A DNA stretch of 64,000 nucleotides from NCBI GenBank assembly GCA_963924555.1, contig OZ004589.1, forward strand, positions 3,968,001-4,032,000. Direction: 5' to 3'. Position 1 is the first letter of the stretch, and each line of letters begins with the position of its first letter. The notes under the pieces are model-generated. The model was not told the DNA's origin and made no database searches. It worked only from the letters and a program-made list of their open reading frames with translations. Shown here piece by piece: positions 210 to 54,820 of the stretch. The DNA comes from Crambe crambe. Its lineage: Eukaryota > Porifera > Demospongiae > Poecilosclerida > Crambeidae. The position numbers were made by a program, and so were the translations under genes.

Positions 210-1377
210 AAAGAAAGTTAGCTGTGAACCTGCTAATGAACAACAGCAGCAAAGGAAATCAAAGCGACAACAGATATTTGGCAACCCTGACATGGATAGC
301 TGTATCTTTTGCTCTGAGGTGAGAGGTATGCTTCATTAACTGTGCAAGATCACAACATAAGGAGAATGCAAGATTCCTCATTGCTTGCTAGGATTTCTGG
401 GGTGATTTGATTGCTATTGAAGCAAAGTATCATTTTAACTGCCTTTCAACTTATAAAAATAGATATCGGAGTGCACAATGAGCCCAAAATAGCCCTTCTT
501 CTAGTCAGGAAGATGAATTCATTCAGGTTCAAGTGTTTGCTGACGTAATATTATACATTGAAGAGAGCATAGAAGGTGGAAACTTTATATTCAAGTTATC
601 TGAGCTTCATCGTATGTATGTGAGCCAGCTGGAAGAGTTTGGGATTGAAAAATTTGTTCATAAAACTAGGCTGAAATTATAAATACTTGACTATTTTGGG
701 GGGGGGGGATTGCCAGGAACAGTTATCCGATGGCATGAGCATAGTGCTAGTGTTTAATCAAGGCAACAACAACAAAAAAAAAAGAAGCAGTTGATACACG
801 TGATTTTGAATCAGAAGCACTTGAGCTGGTGAAGATACTTAGGCATGAAATGCTTGAATGGAAATCCTTTAAATTTTCCACCTAGCTGCCAAAGAAATTA
901 TTCCTCTCTTTGTTACTGAATGGGTCAAATGCAAAAAACTTTGAGACTCAGGCTTCTCTAACTATAGCTAGCCCAGCTAATACCAAGGTTAAAGGCTCTT
1001 CTGCTGTACCGTGAACCTCCTATACCTCTGTTTCTTGGCTTACATGTCCATACACAAACCAGGAGCAAGAAGATAGTGAACACTTTGTATAGAATGGGCA
1101 TTAGTGTTAGCTATGATCAGGTGCTTGAAATAGAAAATTCTCTCGCCAGAGCTGTTTGCAAACGTTTTGAAGAAGAGGGTTTAGTATGTCCTGCAAATTT
1201 ATGTAAAGCATCCCAGTACCAGAGGGATTTGGTTGGACATTACTTGAACAGACCTGGGAACCGGCAAGGGCTTGTCAAGAGTTTCTGAAGTGTGGCTGCA
1301 AATCACTTCTATTGTGCTCAAAGTGTAGACTTTCATGCACAGGTCTTTGCTACTGCGGTGGAACTTGTGACAGTTAA
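210..1377 (+). pseudogene. Decayed transposon-like Cys-rich ORF family member
   Basis: Several short open stretches in shifting frames read as one broken protein. In order they give a segment with FKLSELHRMYVSQLEEF (about 590-650), then NTLYRMGISVSYDQVLEIEN and VCPANL (about 1078-1200), then KASQYQRDLVGHYLNRPG (about 1206-1260). A Cys-rich tail follows at 1259-1377 in another frame, with about ten cysteines in CxC- and CxxC-like spacing resembling a tesmin/TSO1 CXC domain. I recall proteins of this shape as repeated, unnamed genes in corals and sponges; that is memory, not a search. A block expected between VCPANL and KASQYQ appears to be deleted. Stops and frameshifts make function impossible. 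The role of the family is unknown to me. Confidence 0.5.
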
Positions 1378-1379
1378 TT

Positions 1380-2820
1380 TCTTTTTCAATTTAACTGCTT
1401 ACATTAATCTACTGCAGGAGAATTTTCTTGGCAGGGTAGATTTTAGACAGGGTATCTTCCCCATACTAACTCAAAAGCTGACTTTAAATATATCATTGTA
1501 AAGCTTATCAGCTAAGCTTTCATTTGAGACCGAAATCATTCATTAGGCAAGTATGAATCAAAAGTTTAAAATATCTCATGAATAATTAATAAGTTGTTAG
1601 TACACCCCCTATAAAATATGTTGAACACCCTTTAGAACGTGGCACCCCTTCTGAAATGCTTCAGTATGGTCTAAAGTATCACTGTGCAGAGTATGACATT
1701 TTGGTCCAGAAGTGCACAAAAAATGTAGTTAGCCACTACACTATAAGTGCTTTATGGCATAGATAGTATATTACTGCCCTGGGATTGGAAACGGTAGCAT
1801 TTGAAAATTTCGCAGGCACTCCATGTTATGGTTTGTGACCAAGAAACTTACCTGGTTACGTGGGTGGTAATGGGCTGCGGTAGTCTATTAGGAGGCGTGT
1901 AGCTGCTCTTCTACATGGAAACTGCAAGCAGCAGTTACAATTTCAATTATTCCTATTAGTTCAATGGCTAAACTCCACACTTTAGCGGTCTAGAAAACTA
2001 GATGAAATTTGTCAGGGGAATGGTAGTCTTCATAACTTACTTTTGTGCTTATTATCTAGTTCTGTGAGTAGAACCATTCTTCTTTCATAGCATGAGTGGC
2101 ATTAGATGAATGCTACTGCATTTAAAAATATAAACCAATTTCTTATAGCATTCATGGGAGGAAGGAAGCATCAACTAAGTAATGGTCATGTAACCTTCAC
2201 TGCTGCACTCCATTACGGATATCCTGGTCACTCTACAGTTCATGCTGATATTAAATGGTGTCAATATCGACAGCAACATTGATCCTAAAAATTGTTCCAG
2301 CATTGTATGCTGGAGAAGCTCATGTGTCTCTCTAGTATCAGAAGTGCCATAACTGTGATTGACTCCAGAAAAATTTGTGTTGGTAACTCTGATGACTCAT
2401 TCATAGCATCTTGGCATTGAAGTTCATTGATGGTATAATTATTATTAGCAACTCTGCATTTTGTAATCACTAACTCTTGTAGCTAGCAAATCTGAGAGTA
2501 TATTCATAATTATTGTGCAGTAATTATTGTGTAGTAGCCTGCTAGCTAGGCTGATGAATAAGGAGAGGAAGAGAGTCCATCACATCACTAGCATGCACTG
2601 TATAATTATTAGATTTTAAGTGCGCGCGTTGACTTCATAACATGGATTGCCTGTGAAATTGGTTCCGTTTCCAATCCTATATTATCTATGTTTATGGTAA
2701 GCATTACAGCTTTCTATGTATGCATAGAGGCGAAGTGTGAGATAACTGCCCATATTTCACAGAGTTATCTTACAATGTACTGAGCATGCGCAAAGTCGGC
2801 AACTGAATAATTGAGCATCA
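1380..2820. other. Non-coding AT-rich stretch
   Basis: I see no gene, clear terminal repeat or tandem array here. The few open frames are short and have no recognisable motif. Confidence 0.5.
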
Positions 2821-3628: not shown

Positions 3629-4337
3629 TTTACATGACTAAACCCAGTCCTCTATGCCAGCCCTACAGTTCTTAGTTAGCTAGCAGGTAATGAACAACAA
3701 CAATGCATAATGTAGGCACTGATGGGCTGTATATATATGCTTCGCACACAATAGTTTACATATCTAAGAAAGGTGTTGAGATCTAGCTAGCTGCCTTATT
3801 TTTATTTCCAGCAGTCTTTATGAATAAATTTAAGCACTCTAGCTTGAGAGAGTGGTAGATCCAATCTGGTTCTTGTTTGTATACTTCTCTAGAAATAATT
3901 ATATATAGCTAGCTACCAGCTAAATTTTTCAGATTGAGAAGTCATTATGAAGTCCAAATCTGGACCCTTTGAAATTAGAAAGTGCTCCATTCAAACCATA
4001 TGCATTCACAAATACGAATCTTTCACTAATCCAATCAATGGGTATTTAGATTAGTGAGGGTCCAGCAAAACAACCTGTGCATCAAGCCTTTCCATTTCTT
4101 GTACAAAATAACAGATTTAAAAGAAGTGGCCCAAGCCTTTTTTTTTTTTTTTTGCATATTAAGAAGAGTGCATATATCAGATAAAAGAGTTTTAGCAGCT
4201 TTTGATCTTACAGTATTCCTATGGTAACGAAAAGCACTGAAGTGCTAACCCTTAGCACACACTAAGAATGCTTAGCATCGTGTATGTCTTTGCAGATATT
4301 GAGCAGATCAAGCAGGTATTATTTCAATGTTGAGCTA
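3629..4337. other. Non-coding stretch
   Basis: No coding signal was found. Contains many GCTAGC-like words and a T-run at about 4138-4153. I see no terminal repeats. Confidence 0.4.
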
Positions 4338-4873
4338 GCTTAGCCTCGTCCCCCCAGGCCTTTTTTTGATTGTGGAGGGACTGGTACGAAGTCATGGGGT
4401 AGTGCACGATAGCATTATGACCCAGCCCACGCATTAGGGCTATGGACTGGAGTGACTACGGCATCAAGTGTTCAGAAGAACTTCTGCTGTTTCCCTACAA
4501 CGCTACAGCCATACAACCAAGGACTTCTAACACTCGTGAAAAATTCTGAGGCCAATCTATCTGTGATCCAGCTAAGCCTAAAGGGATGAACAAAATCTAG
4601 TAGCTAAATAGCTAACAATAAGCAGCTCTAATACTATCTGCTGTTAGGCTAGCAAAGCATAGCAACACTCAAATTCAGTGGCAGCTCAACGCCTCTTTTT
4701 TTTCTTAGGCCTGGCCATGTGCTTGTGTGTGGTCGTAGCACGAATTTGTCATGGTGACGTAATGCGTTTCCTTGGACACACCCACACTATAGGTTTCTAT
4801 GATTTCTAGAAATTTTCACGTACTGGCCCTCCACAATCCTAATTTAATAAGAGGGCCTGGGGATGAAGCTGGC
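4338..4873. mobile_element. MITE-like element with imperfect terminal inverted repeats
   Basis: The left end reads GCCTCGTCCCCCCAGGCC then GATTGTGGAGGGACTGGTACG. The reverse complement of the right end (about 4806-4873) reads AGCTTCATCCCCAGGCCCT then GATTGTGGAGGGCCAGTACG. The ends are therefore inverted over roughly 45-50 bases with indels. There is no coding potential inside. Boundaries are approximate and no clear target duplication was identified. Confidence 0.6.
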
Positions 4874-15347: not shown

Positions 15348-18300
15348 GTATGTAGAACTGATATCATATAACCTATACAAATATATACCATATAGGATAA
15401 CTCCAACAGACCAAAGATCAACAGTAGCATCATAAGTATGTCTTAACATTATTTCTGGAGCCTGCACAAAATTGAACGTTGTATCATACTTCACGGCTGG
15501 AAAAATTTACACACCATATAGAGTGGAGATCCTCTAAATGATTCTGCACTATCACCAGCACGCAAGTGTTGAGCCATTCCAAAATCTAAGGAGAAATATG
15601 TATATATGGTTTACCCTACTCATTCCTTTGCTATAATTATGGCACCTTCAAGAGTTAACATTAACGCATGTGAAAAAATTTTTGCATTACATTTCAGATA
15701 CTGAAATGACATACTTTTTGACTTCTACTTTGCTTTAATACTTGTAGTTAAGGCAGATGCTCTAAGAAGTTCTAAGAATGTTACTTCAGTGATTTCAACA
15801 CTCTCTATTAAACAACTTATTTTGAAAGTGTGAGTTTACCTGCAATTTTTAAAATGGGCCTTCCATCCCCAGATAATAGGAGGTTTTGAGGTTTCAGATC
15901 CATGTGTGCTATACCCTTTTTATACAGAAACTGGAGGGCAAGACCTAAAATAAAGCATGACTATTATAAGGGTCAGATGGCAGTTAAATTCAAAGTATAA
16001 TCTTTAATAAAAAATACATTCTATGTACACAATGAAAGATCAGCAAGTAACTTGAACCCAGGTGCTTCAACCAATACAAGTGCTTTCAATCCAAGCACTC
16101 TGCCCAGAGGTTGCAAGTGGTAAAGACATGGCATAAGAGCAAAAGCAGAAAATTAACAGAGATAGTGATAGAAAGAGTGTGGGCACTGCTGTCTTTTGGG
16201 GCAGTATAATGAAGCTGCACAACATCAATTTATAGGTAGGTTCCCCTCTCTACTCAAATCAATAACCAAAATGAGCATCAGAAATTTTATTATGTGCATA
16301 CAAAAAAGTGATTGCTCTCTCAATCTCATATTGGTCAGCAATGACAATCTTCGATATAATTACACAACGATAATAGGTATGCTTTGCTACTCCATAATTA
16401 CTCAGTGTGGTCCACAGTTCCAATAAACACTGCCTGGGTAACTTGTGTACATAATTATATTGATAGCCAACTATGATAAGTATACCTAACTGTCTCAAAA
16501 ATTTTCTTGCATCTTTTTCACTTAAGACAGTTTTATTTTTGATGAAAGTGAAGAGATCACCTCCACTGCAATACTCCATGATTAAATAGATGTATTTATC
16601 ATCCCACTGAAACATCATAAAATAGAAATTAGTAAACAGGACATACTGATTAATTTGAAAAATGAAGGTTAATGGTACATTAACCGGAGTTAATAGAAGG
16701 AGGCTCCTGGGGTGGCAGCTAAAAAAAAAAGAAGAAGAAGAGAGATTTGTAATAATAAAATACTACCGCCCGCGCGTGCATGCAATATTCAGTGCGCATG
16801 CGCCTCAGGACGTCAGTGCATGCGGCTCTGGAAGAGAAGGCCATTTGGGATTGCATAGTATCTGTGTCAATCCGTCGCGCTCTCAGGACTCGAGCTACTA
16901 TTTCCATCCTAAAAGATCAAGATCAGAACCACATTGGCTTAATAGACAGATGTCTGGAGGGGAGTCACCGAACGCTGATCAAACACCCCCTGTCTTCTCC
17001 CAAGAGCAGCAAGCATGGCTAGACCAGTTCTTGACAGCCCGCATGGGAAGGAATGCCACATCAACTACAACTACGGATGGTCCAACCCCAACCCAAACAC
17101 CTGGCAACGTGGGTAAGTATGATCATACCCCCTCAGCTGAGAGGCTAGCTATTTAACAAACCTTAGTGGGCCCACAACACCCCTGATCTCTGTATCAACA
17201 ACAGCAACTAACTGACCAATAGACCCACAAGGTACACGTATATGTAGATACAATAATAGGAAAGATGCACATAAATAAAATACTCCTGTCATCATCCAAT
17301 AATGATAGTCTCCTATGAGGGGCCCAGCACCATATACAATTGGCTCCCAGCAATGGACCCCTCAACAGCATTCAATAGGGGGCAGCAGACAATGGTGGGC
17401 AGATGCCCCCCCCCCCCCAGCTGCATACAACAGTGGGCGTGTGGCCCCAGCAGCATACAACAACAACGGTTGGCATGTGCCCCCCCCCCCCCCCCCTCAG
17501 CAGCATACAATACAATGGTGGGCATGTGGCCCAGCAGCATACAACAACAACAGTGGGCAGGTGCCCCCCCCCCCCCCCAGGAGCATGCAATGGTGGGCGT
17601 GTGGCCCCAGCAGCATACAATGGTGGGCATGTGGCCCTAGCAGCATACAATGGTGGGCATGTGGCCCCCAGCGCAGCATACAACGGTGGGCGAGTTGCCC
17701 CAGCAGCTTACAACGGTGGGCGTGGCCAGCAGCATACAATGGTGGGCGGGCCCCAGCAGCATACAACGGTGGGCGTGTTGCCACAGCAGCTTACAATGGT
17801 GGGCATGTGACACCCCCCCCCCCCCCCCCCCCAACAGCAAACAATGGTGGACGGGTGGCCCAAGGAGCACACATGATGGGCGGGTGCCCCCTTGCAGCAT
17901 ATGATGATGGGCAGGTGCCTCCGACAGCATACAAGGAGGGCGGGTGCCCCCAGCAGCTTATAATAGTGGGCATGTGGCCCCCAATAGCATATGATGGGGG
18001 CAGGTGGCCCAGGCATCACGCATGATGGGCGGGCGGCCCCCAACAGCATACAATGAAGGCATGTGGCCCCCAGTAGCATGACACTGTGTGGCATCACAGC
18101 CTACCCACATAATTGATGCTACTCCCATCCTCTTACAGGCTTAGGCATGACCCCACCAGCTGCAGCATTACCGGATGTGCCCACAATTGAGGGAGGAGAT
18201 ATCACGGCACCCATCATCTCCACTGGGGCAGACAATACTCCTACCACCCCACAACAAATCACCCTCCTGGGAATGTCCCTCCCAGCCAAACTCCAGAAAA

Positions 18301-21300
18301 AGATCCTGGACTTGGAGTTCATTGAGATGTCCGAACTCCTCCCCGACACATGGAGGCAACAGGACGAGGACACTAAGTGCTGCCAAGCAAGGAAATCCTT
18401 GAGGAGGGGACCAGTAAATGACATTCTAGTATGGACAGAATGCTACTCCACACTGGTGGCTGTTCTGTCATCTAGGTTCCCTAAACAGACGCCACAATTG
18501 ATGGCATACCAGCGGACCATCGTGCTAGCTCAACGGACATTCGTGGGAGAGGGCTGGATAGTGTATGACACATGCTATAGGCGGAAGGCAGGAGTGTCAA
18601 AGTCACTAAACTGGGGAGACATAGACTTCACCCTGTACAATGAGACCTTCATGGGAAGGGCGAAAGCCTTGGCCCGATGCTGATATTGCGCGAGTGAATT
18701 ACATGGCTCTCACGAGTGTGTCTACGCCCCGATACAAAACCAAAGCACTGGGAACAACCCCCAGCATTGGACCCGGCCACCTCCCCGCAATCAGACAGCA
18801 GTGTGTCAACTCTTTAATGGGCGTACAAGCAATTGGTGCACATTTAACCCATGCAAGTATGCCCACATCTGCTCTGACTGCAGGGGCCGTCATCCGGTTT
18901 CTACATGCCGAAGAGGAAGTAGGCAGCAGACTGACAGCCGGCACAGATCTCGTTCACCAAACCCTGTTACCACTAGAAGAAGTAGAGCCGAATGATCAGT
19001 CAATGAACAGAACTGTAGGTAGTGATAATCATAGATAGATTTTCCGCCACAAGGCGTGATCACCCACCACTAGGTGGGTTCCAAATGATTCATGCAATCA
19101 CACACCTTATGTAACCTTTTACTATGTTATGAATAATTATGATCATAATTATCATGCAATTTGGGGGGTAGCAAATCATGGGTCCCATCCTTGCACTCTG
19201 ATTGCAGGTCCAGAGGGAGCATACATCTACACCAGCGACCTTTGAATACCAACACACATCGGATGGCGTCCGAACCAAGGCTCGCACAGATAAAAACTCC
19301 ACTCAACCTGGGAGCATGGGCTCAGAACCTTCGCAGGCACCCAGATAAGGATTATGTCCACTATAGCCTCAATGGGATCGAACACGGTTTTCAGATAGGA
19401 GTGTATGACAGTTGCTCACTCCACTCAGCAAGCCAAAACATGCTATCTGCAAAGCAAAACCCAGAAGTGATAGAGGACTATTTGTCCAAGGAAAATACAG
19501 CAGGCAATATTCTGGGTCCTTTCACTGCAGGGACTGCACCAAGGGTCCATATTAATAGGTTTGGGGTTATTCCCAAGAGACATCAACCTGGAAAGTGGAG
19601 ACTCATAACTGATCTCTCCTTTCCAGAGGGGAACAGCATCAATGATGTGATAAACCCGGACATGTGGGGCTGATCTTAGGCCGAAAGGTAGCATTCCATC
19701 TACAAAGATTTGATCCTTTCATCTCATGCCTAGCCATTGCCAGTCGTAAGCACAGATGGGGATGAGCCGGTAGGCGGACTTGATGTCAATCTTGGCTATG
19801 AGTGCTCCCTGCAATGGCTGTTTTGGCTACAGTTTCCACTGTGATGTACGTCAAAGATCTTCAATGCCCTTGCTGACGGCCTGGAATGGATTGTGGCACA
19901 GAGAGGCGTGGAATTCATCTTCCACTATCTGGACAACTACGCAATTGTTGGCCCCTGTTTGTCAGAAGGCATTGGATACCCTAGCAGCCATCTGCAAGGA
20001 GCTCGGAGTCCCTCTTGCCCCTGAGAAGCAAGATGGCCCCAGCACGCTGATAACTTTCCTGGGGATACTCATCGATACGATCAAACAAGAACTCAGGCTC
20101 CCCAAAGACAAGTTGAGAAGGTTACTGGAGACAGTGTCACAGTGGGAGGGTAAGAAAACATGCACACGTCGAGAACTGGAATCCCTCATAGGGACGCTCC
20201 ATCATGCATGCAAAGTCATCCCCGCTGGTCGCTCTTTCATGAGACGGGCAATTGAACTGCTAAGCGTAGCAAGACGGAGGCACCACCACATCCGGCTCAA
20301 CAAGGAGATCAGATCAGACCTCGCATGGTGGAAAGTCTTTGCATCCAACTGGAATGGGGCCTCTCTAGTCACCCATAGTAACAGTGAACAGATCCACATG
20401 ACATCGGATGCATCCAGATCATGGGGGTATGGGGCGTGGCATGGGTCCAAGTGGTTCCAACTGCCCTGAGCGAAGGAGCTAATCCCGATCATTGCGGCAA
20501 CAGCGATATGGGGACACAACTGGAAGGGGAAAAGGGTTGTCTCCCACTGCGACAATAATTATGGCAGTGGTGGCGGCGATTAACAGCCGCTATGCCAAAG
20601 ACACACAGTTGATGCACATGCTAAGATGCCTATTTTTATTGAAGCCCACCATCAATTTTCGGTATCAGCAGTACACATTCCAGGAGCCCAAAACACCCTG
20701 GCAGACAATCTGTCCAGGATCTTTTCTTGCCAAAGTCCAACACTGGGACCCTGATCCTTCTACCATTCCCCCCTCCCTCATGCAGTGGCTACTTCACCCA
20801 CAACTGGACTGGACCTCTCCCAACTGGATGGCACTGTTCAGTTCTTCTGTGCTAAAGGAATAGCCCCCTCCACGCATCGCACCTATCAGTCAGCTCTACG
20901 TAAATTTTCTAATTTTTGCTCTCAGTATAATATTGTATCATCTTTCCCTGTATCAGAGGCTATTTTATGCTACTATGCAGCATCACAGAAACTATCACCA
21001 CAAACCATAAAAACCTATTTGGCAGGAATAAGACACATGCAAATTACGCTGGGGTTACCGGAGCCAAAAGAGTTCTCCTCACTGCCTAGGCTGAGATTGG
21101 TTCAGTCAGGCATAAAGAGGGTGCACGCCCACAATCCACCAGAGTCATCTCGAATAAGATTACCAATCACGCCAGCAGTGTTACGTCAGCTACATACCCT
21201 CTGGTCGACAAGAGCAGCAGACCCTGATATTGTAATGCTCTGGGCAGCAGCTGTCATGTGCTTTTTCAGTTTCTTCTGGTCGGGGGAACTCACTATACCA

Positions 21301-24300
21301 TCACAGAATGCCTATGATCAAGCAAAGCACCTGAGTTGGGGGGACGTGGCAGTGGACAGCATTCACTCACCGAAGATGTTGAAGGTTAAATTAAAACAGT
21401 CCAAAATAGACCAATTACGCCAGGGTGTGGAAGTTTTCATAGGAAAAACAGGCTGCTCGCTATCCCCAGTCGCAGCAACATTGGCATACATGGCAATTAG
21501 AGGAAGCCATCCTGGTCATTTTTCCAATTTGGGGACCAGAAACCCCTCACCAAAGGGATATTCACTGACAGGATCAGGTCAGGCTTACACACAGCAGCAG
21601 CAAGAGCAGGTGTCGAGGACTCCACCATCCGAATGATGGGAAGATGGAGCAGCTCAGCATTCCTGATCTACATTCGTACTCCGCGGGAAGAACTGGCCAG
21701 CATCTCAGTCAATATAGCCCGAACATAACTCATGGACGACACCCCCTATAGCTAGCAATAAATCACTACAGTACAGATATAAAAAATAAATAAATAAATA
21801 AATTTAAAAATAGAAAAAAAGGTGAGAGAGAAAAGGGTGCTGATCTTCTCTTGGAGGGAAAGATGTGAGCAACTGACCCACATCTTTCTCTGGACGAAGT
21901 TCCTCCAAGAGAGGATCAAAAAACAGGGATAATTGTGGCAAGGAGATGCCACAAAACAGTAGTTGGGCTAGTATAGTGCGAAGCAGTGCTAATGGGAGCT
22001 AAAAGGTGTCAATTGGGGCTAGAGCACTGCAAGTCACTGACTAATGGGGGTCTAACTAGCTAGTTAGCACAAAGAGCCAATGTCAGGCATTATGTCAAAG
22101 GGCCAATAATAGGTGCTAACTAGTACCAGGGGATAATACCACCATGTCCAGGGGCCTCCTCCCAAATAACTCCAATATCTTTCTAGTTATTATATCTAAA
22201 ATACCACAACTGAGATTAACAAGCCTCAAACTCCTGGAATGTTTCCTCAAGATTGGTTGTGTTTAAGAAGGCTTGCTTGTACAACTTGGAGTTTGAGTAC
22301 CTGGATGCATATGCAGCTAGCTAGAGCATAACTATAGCATGAATATTCCTTGCAGTGCAAAAAAAATTCCCAACGCATTGAAATGTAGGGATAATTGTAA
22401 TTGGGGCAAGCCTGAGCAAGCCCCACACTAGCAATTAGGCTGAGGATCATATCATACATTCTAAACACGATTTTTGTTGATATACAATTGCACATAAGCA
22501 GTATTGCTGCAAGATAACACTGAGTTTGCCAGGGAGCTCAACCTCCCTTTGGAATGTCTCAGGAAGTGAGGGATAGTATACAGGATTGAGAAAAACAGCT
22601 GAATAAAGACAGGCCAGATCAAGAAAGTTCATAGGTTTGACTGGATAGCTTGAGCCTATCAAATAGAAGGTATGAGACAGCTAATGAGAGGGAGGCCAGG
22701 TTGGAGACTTGAAATCATTGCTGAAATAGTCTTTCAGGTCATAACGTCCTGTCCTGTATGTTGCTAGGCTATAACCCAGTTGTATGCGCACGCCTGATGA
22801 AAGCACCCATAACTGATACATGCTTCTTGGAACTATCATTATTGTAATTTCCCAGGTGCAGGTCAATTTGAATGACTGATTTGACTGAGTAACAACAAAA
22901 ATAAAAACAAACAACCAAACAAAAAAATTAATATGCAGAAATATGAAACCAGGCTTGCCCCTGTATTTCTCTAGTAATCATGCAGAGGTGGGGCATCCCT
23001 ACAAGGGTGGTATGGTTACTAAACTGCAAGGAAGGTTGATTGATCAGAACCAGAGAATATCCATACCTCAAAATCTTTCAACTTCACTATATGTTCATGA
23101 TCCAGTGCTTTCATTACTTCTATCTCAGTAAATAAGTTCTCAGTAGTTAGTTTTGTGAGTCTAATTCGTTGTATACACTTGACAGCTACAATTTCTTCAT
23201 GATCACTCTGCATGTTAAAATTTACAGAGATACCCTAATACAGTGCCAGAGATACTGGGGGTCAGGGACATGTATGCTTTTTTTCTTACCTATCATGCTA
23301 TGCTCCAATGCTTTACATTTTCCCCTATTATGCCCCATAACATGGCCTATTATGCCTCTATTATTTAGTGTTTATTATAATGTAACATTATGCTAGCCTC
23401 CAAATAGTCTTCTAGGGTGTTATATTGTTTAGTTCCAAATGAATTGTTTAAAAAGTAAAAAACACCATTCAGCAGCTGCTGAAGATGGCTGCATGAGCAA
23501 TGCTTTCTTCAATGATGTGATTCATTTTCATTACACATCATAAACACTGCCTAATTATGCCAGCATTATTATGCCTGCTTTGAAATTTAACCTATCATGC
23601 CAAAAATTATGCTGGCATAATTTACATGTTCCTAACGGGGGGGGGGGGGGGGGGGGGGGGCACTATTTGAACCTGAGATACCACCAATATGGTTAGTCTC
23701 ACAAGCCACACCCCCACCAACACAAGGAAGGAGAGGGTCTGGTGACGCTGGTTGAACTTTTCTGGCAAACCGGATACAGAATTCAAATTCTATTTCCTGT
23801 GTTTTCATGTGACTTGATGACGTAGTTCGTGGCGAGGCGTATCAATCAATCTTAGCAATGTAAAGCCCAAAGGGCATATGCAAAATAAACGGGGGGAAAA
23901 AGAATGTCAAGTGACTGAGGGAGGCTACTCAGGTGTAACATAAAAATGATTTATAACAAGTGATAAGTCAGGTTCTGATGATGACAGAGCAGAGAGGATC
24001 CTGTCCACATTCATGAGGGAGGAGTGAGTTGTGATATAGTGTTCAAAGTACGAATTTCCCTGAAAATATTGAAAAATATTGATCTTACAGAACATAAGGG
24101 TTGGATGAAAAAAAAACTAGAATCACTTTTGTTGTACAATTATTAAAGGCATGGCTAGTAGTGTTCCATTTGTAGCATCAATGTGTTATCACATATGTCA
24201 CAGCAGTAGAATGGATCTAATGTAAGTTCATCCAAGTTAAAGTCATCAAAATTTCTTAATAGTAGTTCACGTCTGCAAGTGACAGAATTCTGGCAATATT

Positions 24301-26339
24301 CTTTCATTAGCTTGCGTGTATGGGCTGTAAAATCTAATGTACGATAATAAAGAATTGCTTTTGCAGGATGATTATCACAACCAGCTCTTCCAACTTCCTG
24401 GACATAACTTTCTAGATCTCCAGTGATATACATGTCTAATATCAGGGCAGTCTAATCCTAATCCAAAAGCAATGGGAGCAATTAAAACTCGTAAATTTCC
24501 ATCAGGTTTACAAAATGATTTCAAAATAGATTCTTTAACTTCCTTTTCTGTGATTGAAGAAAATATATCCACCAGTCTAAAACGTACTAAGTCTGGTGCA
24601 CCAATAGGTTCAGTCCCATACAAACCAAGTGTTTTTTTCATGAATAAATAGATACAACTGCAATCATCATAGCTGTGGCAAAAAATAATTGTCTTATCCC
24701 TTTTTTCCTCAACCAATGGTTGAAAATGTTCTTCAATACTACTTTTTTTAAAAAGCCACACTTAAATGCAGGGTTTCATCTACTGGGGGGGGGGGGGGGG
24801 GGGGGGGGAAGATTCCCCCTCCCCCCAAATTTTTTTATGTTCATAAGGTTTATATAGCTATACTTAGTGAAAGAAATGTAATCCCCTCCCTAATAGAGTA
24901 TTGGAAGTTGTGGAGAATTAGCCAACAATGAGTCCTCCAAAAATAAGTAAAATTTTCTTTCGCGCTCTGCGCGGGAAGCACCTTCCCCCTCGCCGTGGCC
25001 TATGGCCACGCAATCAGTGAGCTTCCCCCCCAAAGTGAAATTCCTAGATGAAACCCTGAAATGGATGTTTGATCGATTTGGGGACTTGGAAATCACAAAT
25101 GGTGCTTTCATATCAAGGTTTTTACAAAAAAATTTTCTTGATGATTTTGTAGCTGTAGCAGTCAGTGCCATAATATTGATGTTTGATAATATGCTCCCAA
25201 TCCTAGAAAATTCAGTTCGAAAAGAATCTCCCCTGCATACAACAAATAAAATGAAGTAGCTACAACTTTGTGTATGCAACTGAGACTTACCATTGCTTCA
25301 CACAATGAGCTTCGTCAACAATTAAAGCAATCAGATACATTTGGTAATCCTGAGATCCCAGCATATCCCTCCACTCTGATTCATTCAAAAGAGACTCTGT
25401 TATGTACGCTACTGTGGCTCAGACTGTCTGACAAGTCTCCCACATAAACAGCTGTGGCTCCCTTTTCCTTAAGTTTTTGCACTTGCTCCTTCATAAGTGC
25501 AATGAGAGGGCTAATTACAACTATCGAAGAAGTAGTGCCTTAAGTCATTAAATATTGATGGTAAGACAAAGTAGCAGAGAGATTTCCCGCTACCAATGAT
25601 AAAAGTATCGTGTCCACTTACAAAATTTAATATTGCTTCCTCCTGACTCGAATATAAATCATACCCAAGCTGATTTGCAGCTTTCTTAGCTGCTCTTATT
25701 TACTCTCACTGTCAGCCATTACTCGCAACGAAATGGCGCCTAGCCTTAGCTGTGTGCACATGCATATACATATACGAAGTCATGTAAGCTGTGCATACGT
25801 CATATCATGTGACAAGATGCAGCTGATTGGTCTATGCAAAATCCAAAACTAATTAATAGTTTGCCAGAAAAGTTCAACCAGCGTCACCAGACCCTCTCCT
25901 TCCTTGCGTTGGTGTGGGTGTGGCTTGCAAGACTACCAATATGGTATTACCTATTAGTTTAGGTACAGCTCACAACACACACCATACACCTCAATTTTTT
26001 AAAAACTTTTCTACACTACACTTGATTGACTGAAAAGCAATTAAACAACGTATAGTTTACTTCAACATACTGTTTATATTATACATCAGGAACACTATGA
26101 ACTACCACAGGAATGTGGAATTCTGCTCCATTCCCAAACACAGGCTTTCAAAGTGTTGTTACTGCACTTGCACCAATACAGTTTTACCCATAGCTCGCAT
26201 GTTATCATGTCCCTTGTAAGCTCACCTTCTTGTAGCCCTTATAAACGGTAGCATAAGTTCCTGTACCAAGTATATCAGTCAATCTGTAATTCCTCATCAC
26301 AGGAAAAACAGGTTTATGCACTAAAGAACGATTCATCAT
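12988..26339 (-). CDS. ULK3: ULK3-like serine/threonine kinase
   Basis: Family members act in autophagy, Hedgehog/GLI signalling and ESCRT-dependent abscission. Exons, phases consistent: 26339-26226, 23207-23067, 16606-16486, 15944-15840, 15585-15515, 15461-15389, 15289-15207, 15156-15001, 14942-14837, 14789-14749, 14000-13907, 13796-13653, 13601-13561, 13330-13283. These give 446 codons. A possible last exon at 13092-12988 would bring the protein to about 480, close to human ULK3 (472). Kinase motifs: glycine loop [16 protein letters not shown] (Lys about 48), AHMDLKPQN (Asp about 141; HMD instead of HRD, human has HLD), DFGMAQ, SPLYMAPE. Two MIT-like regions follow (about 320-360 and 390-440), binding ESCRT-III in homologues. 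Intron 1 contains a RecQ-bearing transposon and intron 2 a DIRS element, enlarging the gene to 13 kb. Confidence 0.92.
15303..15350 (+). repeat. (TG)n microsatellite
   Basis: About 20 TG dinucleotides with one C interruption, in a ULK3 intron. Confidence 0.95.
17113..18138 (+). other. Predicted spliceosomal intron inside the DIRS gag ORF
   Basis: GTAAGT at 17113 and CTTACAG ending at 18138 join two gag segments in the same frame (phase 1, restoring a Gly codon). Nearly the entire intron after about 17320 is a minisatellite that lacks stop codons in several frames, so chance ORFs of up to 236 codons run through it. The exact frame match supports a true intron over one long ORF. Confidence 0.7.
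17320..18080 (+). repeat. Strand-asymmetric minisatellite, units of about 28-33 bp
   Basis: About 25 variable copies of CAGCATACAATGGTGGGC then a linker such as ATGTGGCCCC. Several linkers expand into runs of 10-20 C. The array is G-poor in the runs on the plus strand and G-rich on the minus strand. Open in several frames because the units vary in length and lack stops, giving overlapping chance ORFs on both strands. Confidence 0.9.
19019..19207 (+). other. Possible second DIRS intron between gag and RT
   Basis: Between the gag tail and the RT start lies a stop-rich AT-rich segment ending CTGATTGCAG at 19207. A GTAGTG donor at 19019 would join both sides in the same frame (phase 2). The donor is weak and the TGA at 18993 precedes it, so this could instead be an inter-ORF spacer. 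Confidence 0.4.
19208..20740 (+). pseudogene. DIRS reverse transcriptase / RNase H with internal inversion
   Basis: The N-terminal part has [20 protein letters not shown] and [16 protein letters not shown] motif region [20 protein letters not shown] and [11 protein letters not shown] follow. At about 19666-19857 the strand flips: on the minus strand one reads [14 protein letters not shown] (motif A), then WQWLGMR, a TGA, and [12 protein letters not shown] (motif B). The plus strand resumes with [18 protein letters not shown] and [11 protein letters not shown], where the second Asp of YLDD is Asn. Connection-like [16 protein letters not shown] and [19 protein letters not shown] follow. RNase H shows [15 protein letters not shown], a TGA where Trp is expected, AKELIPI, HCDN and [13 protein letters not shown], with two frameshifts. 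Confidence 0.85.
20785..21729 (+). pseudogene. DIRS tyrosine recombinase, catalytically dead
   Basis: Reads [70 protein letters not shown], then [14 protein letters not shown]. The box-I pattern is normally FRSGE, so the catalytic Arg is replaced by Trp (21280-21282, TGG, consistent with CGG to TGG). At about 21535 the frame shifts; the other frame continues with [35 protein letters not shown] and stops at about 21729. The HSFRIG-type HxxR box expected between SGLH and TAAARAG is missing, apparently by an internal deletion. The terminal Tyr region (FLIYI) survives. Confidence 0.85.
21839..21922. repeat. Long imperfect hairpin downstream of the DIRS element
   Basis: GATCTTCTCTTGGAGG near 21842 pairs with CCTCCAAGAGAGGATC near 21904. 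An inner arm GAAAGATGTG pairs with CACATCTTTC. The loop is about 11 bases. It could belong to the DIRS 3' non-coding end or be an unrelated foldback. Confidence 0.7.
21923..23066. other. Remainder of ULK3 intron 2
   Basis: Contains a low-complexity (AAAT)n-like tract at about 21780-21815 just upstream and otherwise no recognised gene or repeat boundary. Confidence 0.4.
23637..23660 (+). repeat. Poly-G run of 24
   Basis: Uninterrupted G tract ending about 35 bp left of the RecQ-bearing element. Inferred G-quadruplex potential. Confidence 0.95.
24155..25735 (-). pseudogene. RecQ-family DNA helicase, decayed
   Basis: Helicase motifs appear in order on the minus strand: [19 protein letters not shown] (motif 0 region, about 25670), [14 protein letters not shown] (Walker A with a small loss upstream), [15 protein letters not shown] (Ia), [12 protein letters not shown] (II), [13 protein letters not shown] (III), [12 protein letters not shown] (IV), [20 protein letters not shown] (V), [12 protein letters not shown] (VI), then RecQ zinc-region-like CRRELLL and CCDIC. 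An intron at 25290-25233 (58 bp, GTAAGT...GCAG) joins QW to GDSFRTEF in frame. Motif VI normally reads GRAGRDG; the second Arg is Cys here. Several frameshifts, an in-frame stop near the start and a poly-G tract (24785-24808) inside an intron show decay. RecQ enzymes unwind DNA 3' to 5'. Confidence 0.85.
24785..24808 (+). repeat. Poly-G run of 24
   Basis: Uninterrupted G tract (C tract on the RecQ coding strand, where it forms the polypyrimidine part of a probable intron acceptor). Confidence 0.95.
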
Positions 26340-26502
26340 GCTACAGCAATATTACAGGTCAAAGGTCATAGGGAGGATTGCGTTATGCGGCTAGCTATAA
26401 TCAGTCTAGTCGCCGCCTACCGGAAGTGCCCATAGGAACAATACAAATTTAATTGCACTAGCCACTCCTTTTAATTTACGGTTTTCCGTATACTAAATTG
26501 TT
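26340..26502. promoter_or_regulatory. Likely bidirectional promoter between ULK3 and a plus-strand exon
   Basis: Only 163 bases separate the ULK3 ATG (26339, minus) from the ATG of the plus-strand exon at 26503. No TATA box is obvious. The arrangement is inferred from the divergent starts; no transcription evidence is available. Confidence 0.4.
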
Positions 26503-49896: not shown

Positions 49897-50845
49897 TACT
49901 ATCTATGGTAACAGGTCCGTATTTTTGGACTGTATCAGACCTGCTGCCCCACCAACTGCCTACAGATCAAAAATTAGTACTTCAGGTGCCTAGGGTTTAC
50001 GAATTTTTGTTATTACATACCTGTTACAGTAGTACTTTGCTTTCTATGCATGCAGCTGCCTGCTACTTAGCTACATAACACAACAGCAAAGCACAAATGA
50101 ACTATCAGCTCAACATTCCTACAGCCTTTTGGGCAGCAGGCACAAGACTGACAATAGGCTTATCTAAGCGGCTTGTAGGCACTAGGCTTATCTAAGTGCT
50201 TTGAGGTAAGCATGTATGCAGCTGCCTGCCACCACTTACATGACTCTTAACAATATCAAGCACTGAAGCCTATCAGCTACTTTAATTGCTCACTATCAAA
50301 TGCTGCACATTGCTACAGATACTCAACAGCAAATGAAAATCGTTGAAGAATACTTGCTTGCTCGCTCGCTGTCAACTGAATGTTGAACATTGCCCTAGTT
50401 AGTTATGATCAAAATGTGCAAAATTACTAAGACATGCATAACTCTTCTATTGGTGATACTAAAAATTTAGAAATTTGCACTATGAATATACATTATTCTA
50501 TGATATCCTGCTGTATTTAGAATTTTTTGAATGATTACAGAATTTCAGGTTGGTTTAGACATAGTACCTCTTTCTGAGAGAATGATTGAGATAGTTGTGG
50601 CTTAGTACACGATTATTAGGGAAATTAAAGTGCAGGATATCATAGATCTCATTGAGAACATTCCAAAAACATGCAATTGGAGTATTTTAAAGGTACCAAC
50701 AAAGAGATATTCACGTCTTGGTGTCAAAAAAGTTGGTATTGAGAAAATCAACGATATAGAATACATAACAAGATCATTAGTGTCAAAAAAGTTGGTATCG
50801 AGAAATTCATGGATAACATAATGTTGAGAGTTCACACACTGATTA
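49897..50845. other. Non-coding stretch with short repeats
   Basis: Words such as TAACAGGTC and AGACCTG link this area to the TIR element at 48464-48949. A direct repeat, GTGTCAAAAAAGTTGGTAT, occurs at about 50720 and 50779. Confidence 0.5.
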
Positions 50846-52796
50846 AGGTTGTGGTACTGGATCATCAAAACCCTTACGCTTAGCTCTTGCCTTTCTTCTC
50901 AAGCTTTTGTAATGATCTGAGGCCTTATATTCACTCTTCTCCAGCCTTTTGAGATCTTTTTCTTGCAACTGAAGCTTACATAAAGAAGATGGTTGAAGAC
51001 CAAGATCTTTGGAAATATCATACAGAGATGTGGAGCCATCATTGCAATTGCAAACTGCAATTGCACAAGCAGTTTCAATGGCCATCCTTCCTAAGAAGAG
51101 TTCCTTTGGGCAGAGTTTCCATACTGTGGAGTGCAACGATTCATTGGGATTTTGAGTGAAACCCCCTAAGCATCTCTGCAACAGATCCTTACTTCCAAGA
51201 CGGTTATAAATAGGTTGAAGAAGCTGGACAATAGCTGAAGGTATTGGTTTTTTCTTGTGCTGGTATGCTATACCATTAGCCAATGCCTTTTGCCATTTAC
51301 ACCATGATGTTGCTCCCTGGGGACAAAAATGATGTCGAGCCTGCTGATCTGAAGAGTTAGCATGTAATAGTGATGCTTGGACAGCTCACATCATGCCTTG
51401 AAGATCACCTTTATTCCTTCTTATGGAATCCCCATAATAATTTTGTAAAGAGTTGATCAAAGCGTCGGTAAGTCTACCTGCTCCTCCAATTGGTTTTATT
51501 ATCAGAAAGTTTCCTTCCCTTGTACTGTTTCTTTAGCTCACGGAGAGCTGTACCCATCCTTTTCTGTACATGGCCAACACAGTCTACTTTTACCACTTCA
51601 TGACTTGGACCATAAGGCTTCTGTTCCAAGAGGACAGCATGTGTCTTGGCATCACCATCACAAATAAGATGTTTGTAACGTATATTGAAGTCGAGAGACC
51701 TTGCAAACATTTTCAAAATGCCATTGCAGCTGCACTGCCCTCAAAATTCATTTCACACTCCCCCTCGTGTTTTTTCTTCCATTCCTTATATTTACAACCC
51801 TCCCAAAACTTGCAGCCTGGACAGAATTTGGAGAGTACTATGTAATCCAAAAAATTTTTTGTTTCATGTTCAATAACAAACATTGCTCCAAAGAGTGAGG
51901 AAAAACCATGACATTGCCATGTTCCATCTGAGCTTACTGTAACATCAACAATGTCATCATACGGCACTCCATAACAATCATGCACTTCTTTTCTTGCTCG
52001 TTGCATGCTGGCTTGGGCTTGAGCAATACAATGATCGTTGATCACTTTTGCATGCTCTTTATATGCAGATTGTGATACTGGACCAGGTAGTCAAGTAAAG
52101 AGCAAAATGAACTCAACGAAGCCCCAGTACCTCCTACACATTTAGTAGCAAATATTATTTTGCGATTGATCAAAAAAGCTTTGTTACTGGGAGGAATTTT
52201 TGTAGCATTACCACATGCTTCACATGACAATTCAGGACTGGTATATAAGCCTTGGTGCTTACTCAAATCTTGTTTGAAGATTATTGGGCCTTCAATACAG
52301 TAGTAGCATCTTTTAAGGCCTCATTTAATCCGTCTATTTCAAGAAGAATAAGTTTTCTCCCATCCTCCAAATCTTCATCATCAGAATCAAACAAACTATG
52401 AGGAGCCTTACTTAGCCTTTTTCTAACAGTACTTATAGTACCTGAACTTGAAATTGAAGAGCATGAAGATAAGGCCATGATTGAAGAGGCTGTTGAAGAG
52501 GCTGGTGTTGAAAACACTGAAGTAGAAGCTGGCATTGAAGAGAGTGGAATAACTGGGTTAGATGAAGTACCAGTCGAGCAAACAGTAGATGGAGGTGAAG
52601 CTTGTACTGAAGAAGCTGGGCTTGAAACTGGAGTGACAGTAAGTGTAGTTGGAGGTGAAGCTGGTACTGAAGAAGCTTGGCTTGAAACTGGAGTTGAAAC
52701 AGCAGTAGGAGTAGATTCTGGCTTGCTTTTTCGCTTTCTGATATGTGGAGGGACTATTTTCTTCCTTCTAACTGTCCTTTGTTTAATTCCAGGCAT
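50846..52796 (-). pseudogene. Mutator-like (MULE) DDE transposase, decayed
   Basis: The start MPGIKQRTVRRKKIVPPHIR is followed by a Ser/Pro/Thr-rich region (about residues 30-120), then a stop at 52281 and a stop-ridden Cys-containing part. The catalytic region continues: VDVTVSSDGTWQCHGFSSLF (first Asp), KHLICDGDAKTHAVLLEQKP (second Asp), VDCVGHVQKRMGTALRELKK, a frameshift at about 51500, GGAGRLTDALINSLQNYYGD, a TGA at about 51388, HHFCPQGATSWCKWQKA, and FTQNPNESLHSTVWKLCPKE (Glu). The SSDGTW...CDGDAK...NPNESLH layout is that of the Mutator-like transposase domain common in cnidarian and sponge genomes. It ends in a Lys/Arg-rich tail. At least three lesions make it inactive. No TIRs were identified. 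Confidence 0.85.
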
Positions 52797-53634: not shown

Positions 53635-54820
53635 CTAGTTAGAGGTGATGTGAGACATTGACCTGGTAATAGGACCTTTCCTTGGTGGTATGACATCAGA
53701 TGATGGTGTAGATGTTTCTTGCTGTTTAGACTTTTTCTGTCGTTTCCTTTTACGTTTAGTTCCAGTCCATGATGTAGTATCTGCAAAGACGAATACGGCT
53801 GAGAGAAACAAATATTGATGGTTCCTTAGGCTGATCAACCAATACCACCTCTGCATTGCTTGGAGTAAGAGCAACAACTCTATACAGACCATGGAATGGC
53901 CTAGCCAGCTTCCATGCTGGGCCTTGTACTTCTCCTGGCTTATGAACCATAACCCTATCACCAACAGACAATTTTGATTCTTTAGCCTTACGATCGTACT
54001 GTTCTTTCTGTGCTTGTCGAGCTTTTCCAATTTTCTCTTGAGCCATTGTCCAAGCAGATGATAACTTTGTTACCAATTCCGTACGATAATCTTCAATATC
54101 TACCAGATATGGTGAAGTTGGCTTACTTAATATGGTCTCAGTGGATATACGAGGATCTCTACCAAATAGAAGGAAAAAGGGTGACTCCCTTGTAGACTCT
54201 TGGGCAGAAGATCTGTAAGCAAACAAAAGGTGTGGCAAATGATCATCCCAGTCATGCTGTTTGACTTCACAACACTTTGCAACCATGTTAATTAAACTTT
54301 TCTACGAGACCATCTGTCTGAGGATGGTATCCAGAGGTATTGATTTTCTTAACTCCAAGTATCTCACACACACCTTGAATGAGATCGGACATGAAATTAG
54401 CACCTCGATCAGAAAGCAACTCCTCGGGAATACCATGTCTACACACTATGTGTTCCACAAATAACCTTGCAATAGTATCCGCATGTTGGTCAGGGACAGC
54501 AAATGCCTCTACCCACTTAGTTAAATAGTCAACAAAACATACAACATATTGTAGTTGTTAAAGGTAATTGCAATAGATCAACACCAAGACAGTGAAACGT
54601 GGTATTGGGGTTAATGGAGGTCAAAAAGATCTACCTGGTCCTTTCCTACTTGCACAAACCAAACAACTTCGACAAAAATGATGAACATCTGCTCTCATAC
54701 CCTTCCACCAATAATACCTACGAAGCCGATCAACCTTTTTAAAAGCAAAATGACCTGCAAAACAACCTGCATGAGCATCCTGTAAAAGCGTGGAGCGTAA
54801 GCTCTCAGGTACCAGAAGGG
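53635..54820 (-). pseudogene. Ty3/Gypsy integrase region, 3' end of pol
   Basis: On the minus strand: an integrase zinc-binding part (DAHAGCFAGHFAFKKVDRLR then HHFCRSCLVCAS, about 54790-54630), the core (VEHIVCRHGIPEELLSDRGA and TSGYHPQTDGLVEKFN, the Asp and Glu of the DDE site, about 54460-54290), then LPHLLFAYRSSAQESTRESP, LFGRDPRISTE, and C-terminal KARQAQKEQYDRKAKESKL and VGDRVMVHKPGEV (54240-53930). Frameshifts occur near 54285 and 53760. The 5' side is cut off by the satellite starting at about 54822. RT, RNase H and LTRs were not identified; a polypurine-like run lies at about 53285-53300. Confidence 0.85.

Follow-up and report, generated by a model that had tools for sequence, protein, structure and literature searches.

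How does a RecQ helicase gene come to lie between long terminal inverted repeats (TIRs) in the genome of the sponge Crambe crambe? The window analyzed here, a stretch of 64,000 nucleotides of contig OZ004589.1, contains such an arrangement, and the original prediction offered two readings of it: a host gene piece captured in the manner of plant Pack-MULEs, or an element family that carries RecQ as its own helper. We argue that the unit is very probably an AcademH-like DNA transposon in the form of a dead, non-autonomous copy.

The proposed unit, inverted repeats and a direct repeat around RecQ, is real. Its inverted arms (84 nt; 23687-23770 and 25859-25942 of the window) are 93% alike, a target site duplication (TSD) flanks the unit and RecQ exons lie inside. 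With TAGTCT...AGACTA taken as its termini, the element covers 23694-25935, or 2242 bp (table 1). The duplication was first read as 11 bp, and this sequence, ACCAATATGGT, is indeed a perfect direct repeat when it is allowed to take in a single base from the end of the right TIR, but the flanking repeat is best read as the 10-bp CCAATATGGT. When 98 bases (arm plus flank) were used as a query against the genome, 23 matches were found, the weakest with an E value of 8.5e-8, and 14 loci, L009-L021 in addition to the window, have ends of the window type. Both ends are present in nine of these loci, which we examined for TSDs. Flanking repeats of 8-10 bp were found in six of the nine: 10 bp in the window, 9 bp in L010, L015 and L021, 9 bp in L013 if its left end is shifted by 2 bases, and 8 of 9 bp in L012. 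The repeat of L009 has 6 bp, more if it overlaps the TIR end, and no recognizable TSD is present in L016 and L019. Together, the 23 arm matches and the flanking repeats in six of nine loci exclude in practice a chance origin of the unit. Two loci outside this TIR family also have TSDs, of 9 bp in L082 and of 8 to 10 bp in L083, depending on where the TIR is cut. The target duplications of L015 and L082 (GGGTAGAAT and CATTCTACC) nearly match when one of them is reverse-complemented, perhaps by target preference, perhaps by chance.

Table 1. Features of the inverted-repeat unit (positions and strands are those of the window).
Feature	Position	Strand	Remark
Left target site duplication CCAATATGGT, 10 bp	23684..23693	.	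direct repeat
Left TIR, starts TAGTCT, contains GGGTCTGGTG	23694..23770	+	23 genome matches to arm
Left interior	23771..24184	.	first ~55 bp common to several short copies
Decayed RecQ helicase gene, exons 1-3	24185..25693	-	reading frame varies among pieces; motif I shorter
RecQ exon 1	25541..25693	-	
RecQ exon 2	25290..25406	-	
RecQ exon 3	between 24185 and 25237	-	in pieces
Nested small inverted-repeat element	24769..25058	.	TIR CAGGGTTTCATCTA, 5-bp TSD AAATG, inside RecQ exon 3
Right TIR, terminus AGACTA	25859..25935	-	inverted-arm comparison
Right target site duplication CCAATATGGT, 10 bp	25936..25945	.	direct repeat

The interior had been described as an intron-containing RecQ gene, which holds as far as its exons are concerned. 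Exons 1-3 are all present, in the same order as in an intact relative and with 32-45% identity, and Pfam recognizes two domains in it, RecQ_Zn_bind with an E value of 4e-6 and Helicase_C with one of 7e-7. The gene is nevertheless broken: exons 1 and 3 each consist of pieces that differ in reading frame, motif I is shorter by eye than in loci L016 and L083, and exon 3 carries an insertion. This insertion, which reads CAGGGTTTCATCTA...TAGATGAAACCCTG, is a small element with termini resembling those of hAT elements; it is absent from the corresponding place of L016 and was found at 37 further places of the genome, plus small pieces, among the matches listed. Matches at query positions 649-944 correspond to it and were left out of the RecQ counts given below.

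Most of RecQ is kept in just two of the 14 TIR-family loci, the window and L016 (C8:5188518-5191485). The two RecQ units are 87-92% alike in matching blocks, and L016 has its exon-2 region inverted over about 190 bp relative to the window. The remaining 12 loci gave no RecQ exon in a protein search at E 0.01. Such a distribution would be compatible with capture, in which a Mutator-like element took up a fragment of a host RecQ gene once, and Mutator-like elements, with their long TIRs and TSDs of about 9-11 bp, indeed resemble the unit in both respects. However, DNA resembling the start of RecQ (window position 25633 onward) is kept in at least four short copies of the family (L009, L010, L012 and L017), which argues against capture, as does the recurrence of RecQ elsewhere in the genome.

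A search with the N-terminal part of the L016 RecQ gave at least 115 matches in the genome, a lower bound based on 150 scored candidates out of 192, and we took the best 30 of them as 3-kb loci (L052-L081). Three near-identical families, with copies about 96-99.9% alike, account for 22 of the 30 loci: A (L056-L062), B (L067-L072) and C (L073-L081). Most ends of these families show the pattern TAGTCT...GGTCTGG; it is absent at that place in L058, L061 and L077, varies in L068 and lacks its first bases in L081. In 23 of these best 30 of the at least 115 matches, the pattern lies no more than 250 bp upstream of the RecQ match. When the whole locus is considered, it was found in 27 of the 30 (all but L054, L063 and L068) vs. 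4 of 26 comparison loci, which had been fetched for the nested element, with L022-L025 excluded as copies of the window and L016 units.

A full-length relative of 5.2 kb lies at positions 39-5271 of L083, between TIRs of 74 bp that are 97% alike, start with TAGTCT and contain GGTCTGG. Two genes, with exons predicted from open frames, face each other inside it. The RecQ gene is open, with its start about 210 bp from one end and with three exons (~251-1709, plus strand); its product matches Helicase_C (E 1.3e-14) and DEAD (E 2.4e-7) in Pfam, and its best PDB matches are WRN chains, followed by RecQ and BLM. The partner gene starts near the opposite end and runs toward RecQ. It comprises about five exons on the minus strand (5097-1862), with cysteines in the first exon and the Pfam domain DUF6589 in the last (E 3.2e-49). 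By Pfam, no Mutator transposase domain was detected in exons 1, 2, 4 and 5, the four of its five exons that were scanned, a further point against capture by a Mutator-like element.

The partner gene was found in L082 (exon 2, minus strand), and this exon has 59 matches in the genome. In the same locus, beyond the limits of the family C element, an array of tandem repeats with a period of about 20 bp is present in both orientations (2465-2647 and 3634-4656). After merging same-strand places less than 1 kb apart, we obtained 52 loci of the partner gene and at least 114 of RecQ. A RecQ match lies within 7 kb of 43 of the 52, whereas 0.58 would be expected under uniform placement, and all 43 pairs are convergent, without a single divergent or co-directional pair. 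Since copies within a family are not independent, the 43 pairs do not represent a count of events. Among the matches listed, nine partner-gene loci are unpaired with RecQ, and 71 of the 114 merged RecQ loci, including the window and L016, have no partner-gene match within 7 kb. The genome-wide TIR search suggested by the original prediction led to repeated TIR-RecQ units and to a second gene, a DUF6589 gene with a putative DDE triad. In its product, the motifs GD(Q/Y)L and NY(A/S)xE recur across families A, B and C, in L083, L084 and L085. A candidate for the first D is VGDNID, picked by eye in exon 4 of L083 only. A DDE triad is therefore plausible, and judging from this candidate D...D...E the partner gene most likely encodes the transposase. 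The 437-aa DUF6589 exon of L083 had no sequence match in PDB and none in the viral contigs scanned.

With the five partner-gene exons of L083 as queries, no exon of this gene was found in the window at E 0.01; as none occurs in the left interior, the gene is presumed to have been deleted from this copy. Two short relics probably tie the TIR family of the window to DUF6589. In L016, a probable DUF6589 relic of 27 aa (52% identity; modest E value of 0.006) aligns with the DLHMEHLNR stretch common to families A, B and C, and would link the family to the DUF6589-RecQ layout. L019 has a relic of the fourth exon of the partner gene (18 aa; E 0.001, also modest), and both relics are oriented as the layout of L083 predicts. 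The stretch inside the left TIR of L016 (query 4-187), where the start of a small cysteine-containing ORF lies, has 10 other matches, seven of them in TIR-family loci. Reading the whole stretch from the left TIR to RecQ in L016 as one transposase gene was considered and rejected, since much of it (query 195-617, 746-1017 and 1237-1414) matches other places in the genome; for the same reason, the parts counted as element were limited to the DUF6589 relic and the stretch resembling a first exon. Pfam found nothing significant in the left-side ORFs of L016, and in L016 and the window pieces helicase matches came from the RecQ side alone.

Comparisons among RecQ copies bear on whether RecQ is a functional part of the elements. 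We chose 21 pairs: 15 diverged, five within families, and the window against L016. In the diverged pairs, pN was 0.27-0.44 and pS 0.75-0.92, with codons picked by protein alignment, which favors conserved stretches, and with the decayed L052 and L054 in some pairs; as pS is saturated, we give no pN/pS ratio. Because amino-acid change was restrained while synonymous change became saturated, RecQ looks to have been under long purifying selection between the diverged copies, as far as such sequence comparisons can tell. The window and L016 (dN 0.173, dS 0.288) are nearer to decay, and divergence in the five within-family pairs (dN 0.005-0.035, dS 0.008-0.058) is too recent for a conclusion. While the captured fragment of Pack-MULEs varies, RecQ is here a recurrent and constrained component: DNA of its start is kept in other copies of the TIR family, and several diverged families have the gene again, next to this terminal pattern and paired with a partner in a fixed convergent layout. 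A single Pack-MULE-like capture is thus very hard to maintain. The other reading put forward at the outset, an element family with a RecQ helper of its own, is supported by the convergent layout and the restrained amino-acid change, a helper role being what RecQ would have in such a family.

Which family this would be depends on how the unit compares with known transposons that carry a helicase. KolobokH and Kolobok-1_CCri share with it a RecQ helicase inside a DNA transposon, and the Kolobok TSD is TTAA; the duplications found here have 8-10 bp and none is TTAA. According to PMC9587614, RecQ is present in KolobokH and in Kolobok-1_CCri, in the latter on the complementary strand, a point in favor of a RecQ-bearing Kolobok lineage of this sort. 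The gene order differs, however: in KolobokH, RecQ lies downstream of the transposase domain, whereas the genes are convergent in L083 and in all 43 pairs. Such a lineage is accordingly a most improbable source of the unit.

The AcademH kind agrees better. The helicase of AcademH elements is probably of the RecQ type, and RecQ is found both in L083 and, broken, in the window; TIRs, as in AcademH, are present in both. In PMC10045372, AcademH is described with TSDs of 9 or 10 bp and its sister lineage within the Academ superfamily, AcademX, with TSDs of 3 or 4 bp, a difference linked there to the encoded protein, a helicase or a nuclease. Our TSDs (10 bp in the window, mostly 8-10 bp in other loci) and helicase agree with AcademH and differ from the short TSDs and nuclease of AcademX. 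The title of the founding paper (Kojima 2020, Mob DNA 11:15) places AcademH in animals and fungi, and in a fungal screen (PMC10799480), AcademH, KolobokH or Helitron was given as the origin of DEAD and Helicase_C domains. Among the features compared (helicase, TSD, animals and fungi), none differs from AcademH. The window copy therefore fits an already described kind of transposon, in decayed and internally deleted form, and the original statement that no named family has this make-up is probably wrong, given the helicase and the TSDs of 9 or 10 bp attributed to AcademH in PMC10045372. The lineage presumably descends from Academ.

A separate superfamily with DUF6589 and RecQ, resembling AcademH in layout and not homologous to Academ, has in its favor that our literature search found no paper naming DUF6589. 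Against it stand the combination of helicase and TSD, which is that of AcademH as described in PMC10045372, and the animals and fungi named in the title of Kojima (2020), so that we consider it improbable. Likewise unlikely, in our view, is a distinct superfamily of DUF6589-RecQ elements that has kept RecQ as an obligate, selected part of its transposition machinery during all of its divergence, and whose bursts are a main source of the RecQ-like genes and relics of this genome. A literature search combining Academ or AcademH with helicase or RecQ returned no title reporting such an element in such a genome.

If the unit is of the AcademH kind, its history may be pictured as follows. As the putative transposase, the DUF6589 protein would bind to the TIRs and bring about insertion by a staggered cut of 9-10 bp; the resulting TSDs are what is observed. 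When the element is excised or integrated, or when a gap is repaired, RecQ may act by unwinding or remodeling DNA. The window copy would have moved by means of proteins made elsewhere, or would have lost its second gene after insertion, and may then have decayed and received the nested insertion. Much of the RecQ-like material of this genome, genes and relics alike, would then belong to transposons instead of having arisen by host gene duplication or random capture; among the matches listed, the partner gene lies opposite 43 of the 114 merged RecQ loci. The young families, with their nearly identical copies, provide material for testing the role of RecQ in DNA transposition.

Other features were observed around the unit. 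On the minus strand, two long ORFs (50843-51385 and 53756-54301), apparently repeat-derived, gave no Pfam match at E 0.1. A G+C-richer stretch on the plus strand (~17300-21640), which we take to be possibly a DIRS-type retroelement, has an ORF resembling tyrosine recombinases (Phage_int_SAM, E 3e-4, under the curated cut-off). Finally, protein kinase exons lie on the minus strand on both sides of the unit (16259-16762 and 26205-26351), with a Pkinase match just under the curated cut-off (E 7e-7) and a match to a ULK3 chain (E 0.004). They are probably ULK3-like, and the unit may lie between exons of one kinase gene, that is, in an intron.
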